Positions 11,503 to 26,697 of a stretch of DNA of 33,178 nucleotides are shown piece by piece. How positions within the stretch are numbered: position 1 is the stretch's first letter; every line of letters starts with the position of its first letter. The stretch covers positions 1-33,178 of the forward strand of contig NZ_JAFUAG010000036.1 in NCBI RefSeq assembly GCF_017464355.1, given 5' to 3'. Source of the DNA: Ruminococcus sp. GTDB taxonomy: Bacteria; Bacillota; Clostridia; Oscillospirales; Ruminococcaceae. The notes beneath the pieces were generated by a model, which was not told the DNA's origin, searched no databases, and saw only the letters and a program-made list of their open reading frames with translations. Made by a program: the position numbers and the translations under genes.

Positions 11503-12231
11503 TTATTTTACCAGCAGCATATACAGATAGCACCCGCCCACCGAGATCACATTGCTCATGCTGTGCATTATCATGGGGTAAATGACGCTGTTGCTCTTCA
11601 GCAGTACAAAGCCGTAGGCCAGCCCCAGGACAAAAGCGTAGCACACCTGGAACCAGGGGACGGAAAATGTCATAATGCTTATATGCCCCAGGCCGAAGAG
11701 AAATGCGGTGATGACAACAGCTGTGATACGGTGCTTCTTGTCATCGGGGTCCATAACGTATAGCAGCAGGGTAATGGGAATGCTCCTGAAAAGCACCTCC
11801 TCAGAGGGTCCCGAGAGGAAAAGCTGAAAGCCCAGGGTGCCTGCGACGTTTGCGCGGGTAAGCTCATAGCCGTAGGTATTTATGGAATGCAGATATCCCC
11901 CGATGATATACGTTGCTATGTAATACACAAGCAGTATCAGGCAGAATATGAGGGTGTAACGCACACCCTTGGCATCATGTGCGGGGCGAAGCTTGAAGCC
12001 GCTTACACCGAATTTGTGAAGCAACATAATAACGGCCAATGCGCATAACAGCTGGACCACATGGTGAACAGCCACCGCCGCAAACAAGCCGTCCTTATCT
12101 ATGGCAGAAAAGTCAAACAAGTCTGCCGCAAGCCAGCCAACTCTGCTGGAAAGATACTGTACCGCAAAAAGCAGCACTGTAATTATTATTACAGCGGCAC
12201 ACATTTTTGTGCCTGTTAGTTTTTTGGTCAT
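11503..12231 (-). CDS. CPBP-family intramembrane glutamic protease (CAAX protease-like)
   Basis: Polytopic membrane protein of 242 aa with about seven hydrophobic segments. The three family motifs are present: EEVLFR (144-149, the EExxxR motif with the catalytic glutamates), FLFGLGH (177-183, FxxxH) and HSMSN (223-227, HxxxN/B). The Rce1/CPBP family cleaves inside the membrane. In Firmicutes members are often linked to bacteriocin immunity, signalling or stress, but no bacteriocin gene is seen here. The ATG follows aaggagaacaacag. A palindromic mobile element is inserted right at the upstream -35 box. Confidence 0.92.
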   Translation of the reverse strand: MTKKLTGTKMCAAVIIITVLLFAVQYLSSRVGWLAADLFDFSAIDKDGLFAAVAVHHVVQLLCALAVIMLLHKFGVSGFKLRPAHDAKGVRYTLIFCLILLVYYIATYIIGGYLHSINTYGYELTRANVAGTLGFQLFLSGPSEEVLFRSIPITLLLYVMDPDDKKHRITAVVITAFLFGLGHISIMTFSVPWFQVCYAFVLGLAYGFVLLKSNSVIYPMIMHSMSNVISVGGCYLYMLLVK

Positions 12232-12277: not shown

Positions 12278-12306
12278 ATCATAGCATAATACCGCCCCGA
12301 TGTCAA
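12278..12306 (-). promoter_or_regulatory. Promoter of the CPBP protease gene, abutting an inserted element
   Basis: On the minus strand: TTGACA (12306-12301), 17-bp spacer, TATGAT (12283-12278). Four bases of the -35 box (12303-12306) belong to the 9-bp target duplication of the adjacent element. The -35 therefore survives the insertion while everything upstream of 12311 was replaced. Confidence 0.75.
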
Positions 12307-12311
12307 CAGAA
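12303..12311. repeat. Left 9-bp target-site duplication (tcaacagaa)
   Basis: Identical to 12412-12420 and flanks the palindromic element 12312-12411. Confidence 0.8.
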
Positions 12312-12411
12312 TCCCAATTTGGTTGTGTATTGTTTCCCCCGCCGAAGGCGGGGGAAACAATACGAAAAAAAGCCATTCTGTATCATCAGCAATACACTTC
12401 AAAATTGGGAA
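12312..12411. mobile_element. ~100-bp non-autonomous palindromic element (MITE-like), copy 1
   Basis: Terminal inverted repeats tcccaatttggttgtgtatt and the complement of its right end (tcccaattttgaagtgtatt) flank a strong hairpin with a ttcccccgcc/ggcgggggaa stem at 12328-12363. A perfect 9-bp direct repeat brackets it. It has no coding capacity. A near-identical inverted copy lies at 16619-16717. Confidence 0.82.
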
Positions 12412-12420
12412 TCAACAGAA
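12412..12420. repeat. Right 9-bp target-site duplication (tcaacagaa)
   Basis: Second copy of the duplication. It runs into the T-run side of the secF terminator at 12419-12449, so the element sits between the end of the secDF unit and the promoter of the protease gene. Confidence 0.8.
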
Positions 12421-12476: not shown

Positions 12477-13454
12477 TTATCTTCTGCCGCTTTTAGCGGT
12501 GGAAGAGGTCTTGCTCTTGCGCCTGGGGTTCTTCTCAGCGTGCCTTCTCCAGAGTACCCAGAGGGTAGGAGCTATGCAGTTGGAAGAATACACACCTGCC
12601 AGCATACCGATTATCAGGGGGAATGCGAAGCTGATGATGGAAGATACACCGTAAATGGTGCAGACGATGCATACAACAGCCATAGCCATTACTGTGGTGA
12701 CGGTGGTGTGTATGGAACGTCCCAGAGTCTGGGTAACGGAGAGGTTGACCAGCTCTTCAAGTTCAAGCTTGCTGCCCTTGAGGGTCTGGTTCTCACGGAT
12801 ACGGTCGTAGATGATGATCGTAGCGTTGATGGAGTAACCCAGAATGGTCAGCAGGACCGCCATGAAGTTAGCGTTGATATCAAATCTGCATATAACGAAG
12901 CAGCCGTATACCATGCACAGGTCGTGCAGCAGTGCCACAACAGAGAATATACCTGCGGAGATACCGCCTATCTTCCTGAAACGGAAGCCTATGTAGATGA
13001 TAGTAACGATAGCTGCGAATATAACAGCGACCATACATTTGAGGAAGAAGTCCAGACCGTTGGAAGCGTTAACGTCGCTGGACTCGAACAGTGCCAGCTC
13101 ATTATCGGTAAACTTGCTTTCCAGTGCTTCCTGGAGTTCGTTCTGCTTTACCTCGTTTATGCCGCCTGTGGAGGACAGCTGTATCTTTACGGTAGTCTGC
13201 TTGGTGGCGGTATTTTCGCCCTTGGTAACAGTTGATTTCTGACCCAGCACATCAGTTACGACGCTCTGCACATCATCGGTGCTGATGTCGCCTGAGTAGC
13301 TGTAGGTCATTATCGTACCGCCCTTGAACATGATGTCCACATTAAGGCCAAGCACGAAAGTGAGTATGATGAATAATGCGATAAGTCCGCAGGAGATGCA
13401 GTAGAATACTTTGCGGTGTCCTACAACGTCAAGAGTTCTTTTTTCCTTAGCCAT
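12477..13454 (-). CDS. secF: Protein translocase subunit SecF
   Basis: SecF works with SecD on the outer face of the membrane, using the proton gradient to help pull proteins through SecYEG. At 325 aa it has typical length. It has an N-terminal membrane helix after the basic start, an external domain (about 45-135), and five C-terminal membrane helices with the family motif VVALLHDLCMVYGCF and the GYSINATIIIYDRIRE region. The ATG at 13454 overlaps the secD stop codon by 8 bp (ATGGCTAA), so the two genes are translationally coupled. The C-terminal tail is basic and Ser-rich. Confidence 0.96.
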   Translation of the reverse strand: MAKEKRTLDVVGHRKVFYCISCGLIALFIILTFVLGLNVDIMFKGGTIMTYSYSGDISTDDVQSVVTDVLGQKSTVTKGENTATKQTTVKIQLSSTGGINEVKQNELQEALESKFTDNELALFESSDVNASNGLDFFLKCMVAVIFAAIVTIIYIGFRFRKIGGISAGIFSVVALLHDLCMVYGCFVICRFDINANFMAVLLTILGYSINATIIIYDRIRENQTLKGSKLELEELVNLSVTQTLGRSIHTTVTTVMAMAVVCIVCTIYGVSSIISFAFPLIIGMLAGVYSSNCIAPTLWVLWRRHAEKNPRRKSKTSSTAKSGRR

Positions 13455-14853
13455 TGTTCTCAACACCTCCGTACAGCTTGCGTTTCTTGAATGCCTTGAA
13501 CTTAGAAAGTGATGAAAGCATCAGCCTTGAACAGAATATACCGAAGAAGAAGTTCAGTATGATACCTACCAGCAGGGTGTAGCCCAGTGAGTAGATAGTA
13601 CCTGCGGTAGAAGCACCGAAGGCCATGAACAGGGGCTTCAGCAGGGTGCCGAAGATACTGTCGGTGGGGCCGAAGGCGCCCATGAGTATGATAGCAACGA
13701 ACACAACGGTGATATTGCCGTCGAAGACAGCAGCCCATGCGCGCTTGTAGCCAAGCTCGATAGCGCCGTTGAGGGACTTGCCGTTGTTGAGCTCTTCCTT
13801 GATACGTTCAGAAACGATAACGTTGGCGTCAACGCCCATACCGATAGCCAGAATGATACCCGCGATACCGGGGATAGTCAGTGTGAAGCTTTCGATATTG
13901 CCGAAGAAGCCGCTTATGCAGGCAAGAGTACCTGCGGCCTGACCCAGCAGGGCGATAGAAGCCACAAATCCGGGGAGCTTGTAAATGATTATCATGTAGA
14001 TAGCTACCATGATGAATGCTATGACACCTGCAATGGTCATGGCGAACTTAGCGCCCTCACCAAGGGTAGCTGAGATTATGTTGGTGGAAGTAGATCTCAG
14101 GTTGAAGGGGAGCGCACCTGCGTTGATCTTGTCAGCCAGGCTCTTGGCGCTTTCGTAGGTGAAATCGCCTGTGATCTGGCATTTGCCGTCAGTGATAGCC
14201 TGATTTACTTTTGGCGCAGAGATCATGTCGTCGTCCATCCAGATAGATATCTGGCCGCTGCCTGCCAGCTCGGTGGTAGCGTCAGCGAAAGCCTGGGTAG
14301 CTTTTTCATTCAGCTCAAGGCTGACCACCCAGGTAGTGGCGCCTGTGTTCGGATCCTGATAAGGATCGGCAGAAGCCTTTTTAACGTCAGTACCCGAGAG
14401 AACCACATTCTCGTCCTCCAGGCTCTCTGCCTGAGTTGTGCCCTTTACGAACACCAGCTGTGCAGTATCGCCCAGCTCACTGATAGCCTCGGCGGGGTCA
14501 AAATCCTCCTCGCCCGACTGCCACGGGAAAGATACCATGATACGATGTTTTGTGTAATCGGCATACACCTCACTGTCGGTGATGTTCAGGCTGACGAGTC
14601 TCTGCTCGATAACAGCCTTAGCCGCGTCCATTTCATCATCGGTTATCTTCTTGTCCTCATTTTCAAGCTCAGGCTCGAAAGTTGCATTAACGCCGCCCTG
14701 AATGTCGATACCCCAGCGTATCTCATCTACGCCCTTGACGTAGCTGTGCTTGATATCGCCGTAATAGGTATGGATACCTGCATAGGTCAGGTAAGCGAAG
14801 CCGAGGATCAGGATAAGCACGATGAAGAAAACAGGTTTTGTGATCTTTCGCAC
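13447..14853 (-). CDS. secD: Protein translocase subunit SecD
   Basis: Partner of SecF in the export machinery. It is 468 aa with an N-terminal membrane helix, the signature RWGIDIQGGVN just after it, a large external domain (about 50-255) and six membrane helices in total. The conserved GMGVDANVIVSERIKEE stretch lies in helix 4. The start is a GTG at 14853: a perfect aggagg lies 7 bp before it. An in-frame ATG 18 bp upstream is made from the ribosome site itself, so it is unlikely. It heads the secD-secF operon. In Bacillus the two are fused as one protein; here they are separate genes. Confidence 0.95.
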   Translation of the reverse strand: MRKITKPVFFIVLILILGFAYLTYAGIHTYYGDIKHSYVKGVDEIRWGIDIQGGVNATFEPELENEDKKITDDEMDAAKAVIEQRLVSLNITDSEVYADYTKHRIMVSFPWQSGEEDFDPAEAISELGDTAQLVFVKGTTQAESLEDENVVLSGTDVKKASADPYQDPNTGATTWVVSLELNEKATQAFADATTELAGSGQISIWMDDDMISAPKVNQAITDGKCQITGDFTYESAKSLADKINAGALPFNLRSTSTNIISATLGEGAKFAMTIAGVIAFIMVAIYMIIIYKLPGFVASIALLGQAAGTLACISGFFGNIESFTLTIPGIAGIILAIGMGVDANVIVSERIKEELNNGKSLNGAIELGYKRAWAAVFDGNITVVFVAIILMGAFGPTDSIFGTLLKPLFMAFGASTAGTIYSLGYTLLVGIILNFFFGIFCSRLMLSSLSKFKAFKKRKLYGGVENNG

Positions 14854-16458: not shown

Positions 16459-16618
16459 ACGTTTCTGACGGCAACTAAGACATTTTTTAGTCACAGATAA
16501 CTTGTTTTGCTAACACGACACCTCTTTAGCATGATGAAGAAAAAGTGAATTTTCGGGTTTTCGTTTTTTCGGAGATAAGCTTATTTTTGATATTTTAACT
16601 TCCTTATATATAAAAAGC

Positions 16619-16717
16619 TCCCGATTTTGAAGTGTATTGCTGATGATACAGAATGGTTTCTTTTCGTATTGTTTCCCCCGCCGAAGGCGGGGGAAACAAT
16701 ACACAACCAAATTGGGA
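16619..16717. mobile_element. ~100-bp palindromic element (MITE-like), copy 2, inverted
   Basis: Reverse complement of the element at 12312-12411 with only a few changes over 99 bp: the same terminal repeats (tcccgattttgaagtgtattg ... caccaaattggga-type end), the same gc-rich hairpin (16665-16701) and the same tgctgatgatacagaatgg arm. The flanking AT-rich DNA (ataaaaagc before, tataaaaaaaagc after) is similar but not a clean duplication. Confidence 0.82.
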
Positions 16718-16719
16718 TA

Positions 16720-16752
16720 TAAAAAAAAGCCCTGCGGGGCTGCCGCAGAGCT
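16720..16752 (-). terminator. Intrinsic terminator of the O-antigen-ligase-like gene
   Basis: Stem agccctgcgg/ccgcagagct with one mismatch and a ggctg loop (16728-16752), followed on the minus strand by eight T. The palindromic element copy 2 begins two bases past the T-run. Confidence 0.88.
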
Positions 16753-16768
16753 TGTGTGATATGCAGGT

Positions 16769-26638: not shown

Positions 26639-26697
26639 TCCCGTTCCGGTTGCGTATTGCTATTTTGCATCATCGGCAATGCACATCGGAATTGGGA
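26639..26697. repeat. Short palindromic element, copy 3 (hairpin core absent)
   Basis: The ends are tcccgttccggttgcgtattgc and the complement of gcaatgcacatcggaattggga. The right half (ttgcatcatcggcaatgcacatcggaattggga-like) aligns with tgtatcatcagcaatacacttcaaaattggga of copies 1 and 2. At 59 bp it lacks the ccccgcc hairpin. It lies in the leader of the double-HTH gene. Confidence 0.65.

Follow-up and report, generated by a model that had tools for sequence, protein, structure and literature searches.

A 101-bp inverted-repeat element lying between secF and a CPBP/Rce1-like protease gene in a Ruminococcus sp. is very probably a mobile MITE copy that sits in the tail of the secF terminator and belongs to a family favouring AT-rich targets and the T-tracts of terminators. 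In kind the element is a MITE, being short, non-coding and multicopy, with terminal inverted repeats (TIRs), a target duplication of fixed length and empty sites elsewhere. The target bias towards terminator tails appears to be new: the open-access literature yielded no published account of such a bias, and no report of an R. albus MITE or of a terminator-aimed TIR element.

The window, a stretch of 33,178 nucleotides, carries on its minus strand, in this order, secD, secF, the secF terminator, the MITE, the protease promoter and the protease gene (Table 1). The sequence TCAACAGAA is repeated at 12303-12311 and 12412-12420 and encloses the inverted-repeat element, whose TIR arms (24 bp, 83%) accompany a perfect inner stem of 17 bp; folded as DNA, the element has a z of -6.40, equalled by none of 200 shuffles. 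A preliminary description had seen here an inverted-repeat element with an inner hairpin between flanking repeats, and this holds. So do its further observations that the left repeat overlaps the TTGACA -35 box, to which it contributes four bases, and that the other repeat meets the T-run of the secF terminator, which continues into it. Removal of the MITE and one duplication from the spacer leaves the terminator stem, TTTTCTG and TTGACA, in line with the earlier proposal that the target duplication preserved an unbroken -35 next to the gene. The secF terminator predates the insertion. The protease promoter is a prediction, with 11 of 12 bases matching and a TG before the -10; 2 promoter-like sites were found where 0.7 would be expected.

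Table 1. Features of the insertion locus and of the second MITE copy, in window coordinates.
Feature	Positions	Strand	Details
CPBP/Rce1-like protease gene	11503..12231	-	PF02517, E 1e-16
Predicted promoter of protease gene	12278..12306	-	TTGACA-17-TATGAT
Target duplication, copy 1	12303..12310	.	TCAACAGA; 12303-12306 also within -35
MITE	12311..12411	+	101 bp, consensus orientation
Left terminal inverted repeat	12311..12332	+	
Inner hairpin	12327..12363	.	17-bp perfect stem, 3-base loop; followed by no T-run on either strand
Right terminal inverted repeat	12390..12411	-	final base A, G in most copies
Target duplication, copy 2	12412..12419	.	TCAACAGA
secF intrinsic terminator stem-loop	12421..12450	-	12 pairs, tail TTCTGTTGAT
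secF	12477..13466	-	PF02355
Second MITE copy	16618..16718	-	94% to query; flanks ATAAAAAG / ATAAAAAA (7/8)
Terminator-like stem adjoining second copy's duplication	16727..16753	-	tail TTTTTTATAT

The duplication had been described as 9 bp long. It is real, but its length is 8 bp, because across 81 strand-copies exactly eight flanking positions agree, each in 67-75 of the 81, whereas the base beyond the eight agrees in just 25 and 26 copies on the two sides. The element itself therefore spans 12311-12411, and the ninth agreeing base at the window locus is a coincidence. Among 118 copies, with one host copy in L200 possibly grouped with the relatives, the duplication is perfect in 66 and matches in at least seven of eight positions in 93, against a mean of 2.35 and a maximum of 10 when the pairing is shuffled.

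As the preliminary description had envisaged, the element has further copies in the genome. A pattern of the family ends (TCCCAATTTNGNNGTGTATTGCTG), allowing at most three mismatches, matched 88 + 85 = 173 places in the host, compared with 3 + 0 for the reversed control. The host copies scored (40 of 138 candidates, in 77 matching pieces) are 91-100% identical, and the TIRs are conserved across 42 host copies. In addition to the second full copy, the window holds a degraded family end with two mismatches at 26677-26697 on the minus strand. Four host loci carry a shorter form of ~56 bp without the inner hairpin, which could have originated by deletion between ATTG repeats; by eye, a duplication was seen in L088 and none in L077, L079 or L086. 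A second dispersed repeat family, of ~95 bp, has a copy at 58-152 on the minus strand of the window and a large number of copies in both R. albus 8 and RUG10798. The window stretch of this repeat adjoins a CCCCCGCC/GGCGGGGG hairpin that resembles the inner hairpin of the MITE.

Beyond the host, 11 of 29 genomes of the genus gave matches at E <= 0.001. Matches were strong in six (G000, G004, G007, G009, G018 and G026) and weak in five (G003, G005, G012, G013 and G025; best E 2.5e-6 to 6.4e-4). Among the matches listed, which comprise 96 stretches, are R. albus 8, RUG10798 and other Ruminococcus MAGs, several of them from the rumen. The consensus of the host copies differs from that of the relatives' copies, which suggests separate bursts. 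A stricter pattern applied to 297 genomes sampled from the host's taxonomic family, 5 of the genus included, matched two, the host and a member of another genus (G306). The G306 element (L215) is longer, with the same ends, an unrelated interior and a perfect 8-bp duplication (GACAGATA), and on this evidence one type of end may serve several MITEs. Two pattern matches in other organisms (L106 and L138) contain no element, and the MITE had no match in phages, plasmids or viral contigs.

Empty sites at three other loci establish that the MITE family is mobile. A match across the joined flanks was obtained for 11 of the 118 copies, and six of these were aligned. Clean empty sites are given by host locus L018 when compared with a 78% similar spacer in L135, by L097 against L164, and by L128, which lies inside the second repeat family and is matched by uninterrupted copies such as L194. 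The pair L131/L190 gives a partial empty site, and alignment led us to reject L132/L030 and L007 against itself. One host insertion (L012) is apparently common to R. albus 8 (L189). Empty sites and 8-bp duplications together contradict a reading of the element as a structured RNA or chance palindrome with no transposon behind it, which we hold to be extremely improbable. Its inner hairpin is strong and the transposase search was without success, as that reading would have it, and 18 cells of the inner stem are changed on both sides; 58 cells are broken, however, in a count where one host copy in L200 is possibly grouped with the relatives. Covariation in the inner stem gives no support for a selected structure, and the window has no Rfam match at gathering scores.

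The family presumably moves by means of a transposase, and the window copy presumably inserted as the others did. The preliminary description had looked to a transposase with matching ends, and none came to light among the PF01610, PF00872, PF12762 and PF01609 transposases of four or five genomes. Members of the IS256 family make 8-9-bp duplications. An origin of the MITE as an IS256 derivative was rejected: the IS256-family ends of R. albus 8 (G004; L093/L095) show a loose likeness (TCCCAAATTCTGTGTAAAC) located inside the ends, with the remainder unmatched, and no IS256-family element was found in the host. A scripted search of 80 of the 96 named stretches for pairs of distant ends, together with visual inspection of 20 stretches of the host, gave five pairs with a duplication of at least 6/8. 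These span 168 bp (8/8, with an inner duplication), 331 bp (8/8), 283 bp (7/8), 245 bp (6/8) and 1449 bp (6/8); among the four shorter ones, three enclose stretches of the second repeat family, and no obvious gene was seen.

Target choice was assessed at 89 non-redundant sites, drawn from the 118 copies by requiring duplication matches of at least 7/8 and 250-bp flanks. The window copy is in this set and the second window copy is out. Host and relative labels were given by locus number, with no host locus among the 89 outside those labels, and the relatives' sites come mostly from one genome, RUG10798. Duplication bases are A or T in 592 of 712 cases, compared with 53% in the flanks, and all eight positions are AT-rich; a crude finder places no ORF over 63 of 77 sites. 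Terminator-like stems end within -14 to +3 of the duplication centre at 21 of the 89 sites, or 21 of 86 once three pairs of apparently shared insertions are merged. Composition-matched positions would yield 2.46 such sites, those also lying outside ORFs (>=110 aa) 4.92, and those matched for A- or T-richness as well 5.53. None of 20000 simulations reached 21, and a laxer T-count gave 23 sites against 7.08 expected; terminators and ORFs were both called with simple finders, and L106 and L138 were excluded from the control pools. Control windows shifted by 60-150 bases held 1-10 of the 89, the 10 falling at -90, and the counts at -40 and +40 were 3 and 19, the latter of which we interpret as detection of these hairpins on the opposite strand. 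Among host sites, 10 of 32 lie beside terminators, the window copy included, and the second window copy likewise adjoins a terminator-like stem. Several results count against terminator targeting: 68 of the 89 sites have no terminator by the simple finder, the -90 and +40 shifts gave the high counts just mentioned, and the fold-energy profile by itself dips only modestly at the target.

The excess could have arisen without any recognition of terminators, if this is an ordinary MITE with a generic AT preference and selection has kept the insertions that terminator tails tolerate best. We consider this a serious possibility, though clearly below an even chance. It accords with the AT-richness of all eight positions and with the predominance of sites outside ORFs, and standing insertions cannot tell targeting from survival. 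Nonetheless, the excess persists with A+T-matched controls outside ORFs, and in 14 of 22 cases the stem stops 4-7 bases short of the duplication centre, which is sharper than tolerance alone requires. We infer that target choice contributes to the excess beyond survival alone. A more specific proposal, to which we give almost an even chance, is that a DNA transposition system recognises the 3' side of terminator stems and makes an 8-bp duplication that spares both neighbours, which would amount to a safe-harbour strategy; the cue might be a cruciform, the geometry of the T-tract or a paused polymerase.

Applied to the window, the targeting account runs as follows. The family favours AT-rich targets, especially the T-tract that immediately follows the stem of an intrinsic terminator, and the window MITE probably inserted in the secF terminator tail, which led straight into the protease -35. 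Repair of a staggered cut would then have duplicated TCAACAGA, so that terminator and -35 both stayed whole. The overlap with the -35 seems incidental, because the promoter follows the terminator tail without a gap and the duplication spared each of them; the element need have had no particular affinity for the promoter. Insertion into promoters is no habit of the family, since promoter-like sites of at least 10/12 overlap the target at 7 of 89 sites, near the level of neighbouring bins, and the window copy alone reaches 11; landing in terminator tails recurs.

It has also been proposed that the MITE regulates the protease promoter, either by displacing an activator site or by insulating the gene from secDF read-through. 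The element does cut the promoter off from whatever DNA lies beyond the -35, and the spacer transcript is predicted to fold strongly (z -6.49). Such a role is nevertheless improbable, as the predicted terminator and -35 are both unaltered, a search within the window MITE (inner hairpin included, both strands for terminators) turned up neither promoter-like nor terminator-like sites, and the promoter landing does not recur in the family. Any effect on the protease gene is probably small. A comparison of secF loci gave no empty site for the window insertion, which counts against the reading of this copy, as does the unsuccessful transposase search. Among 29 such loci, taken from 28 of the 29 genomes of the genus, at least six of which end early at contig ends and all of which were compared as proteins across the whole locus, the host's is the only one to carry the protease gene, and it is absent from the other 28. 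Only 2 of the 29 genus genomes have the gene, the sole other relative being in G009 (54%), and by eye no similar promoter was seen upstream of that relative. Host secF is 93% identical to that of G002, which we take to be R. albus 7, and this identity suggests that the host is close to R. albus.

Several known elements share part of this behaviour. IS1272 undergoes inverted-repeat-replacing transposition, in which it is attracted to stem-loops and replaces them; the MITE is probably likewise drawn to stem-loops but keeps the stem and duplicates 8 bp. MITEAba12 of Acinetobacter resembles the Ruminococcus MITE in being ~110 bp long and non-coding, with TIRs, short duplications at AT-rich sites and tens of copies over related genomes, as described in the accessible part of its report (PMC6382973). 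It differs in its 9-bp duplications, its parent ISAba12 and its outward promoters (PMC6382973, same part), whereas the Ruminococcus MITE has an 8-bp duplication, no parent in the four families searched and no promoter-like site inside; a terminator preference is not described in that part of the MITEAba12 report. RUP of Streptococcus pneumoniae is similar in its ~107-bp TIR repeats, its around hundred copies, its intergenic location and the nesting of one element in another, according to the sections available of PMC3049150. In the same sections SPRITE is itself terminator-like, whereas no T-run follows the hairpin of the Ruminococcus MITE, which inserts next to terminators; a SPRITE-like intrinsic terminator element was rejected, the finder calling the inner hairpin a terminator on neither strand. 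Group IIC introns insert just downstream of terminator stem-loops, but they are described in the excerpted text of PMC7923331 as retroelements with RNA-guided targeting, and the Ruminococcus MITE is a DNA element that has TIRs and duplicates 8 bp. A review of prokaryotic MITEs places them in intergenic and 3'-untranslated locations, and the portion available names no element aimed at terminator tails (PMC10969869).

If terminator tails are truly targeted, a TIR element would occupy the niche of group IIC introns while harming neither neighbour. This would help to explain the high copy number of short elements in compact genomes, and how promoters beside terminators gain new upstream DNA with their core intact. 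The MITE family also provides a marker for comparing rumen and gut Ruminococcus strains.
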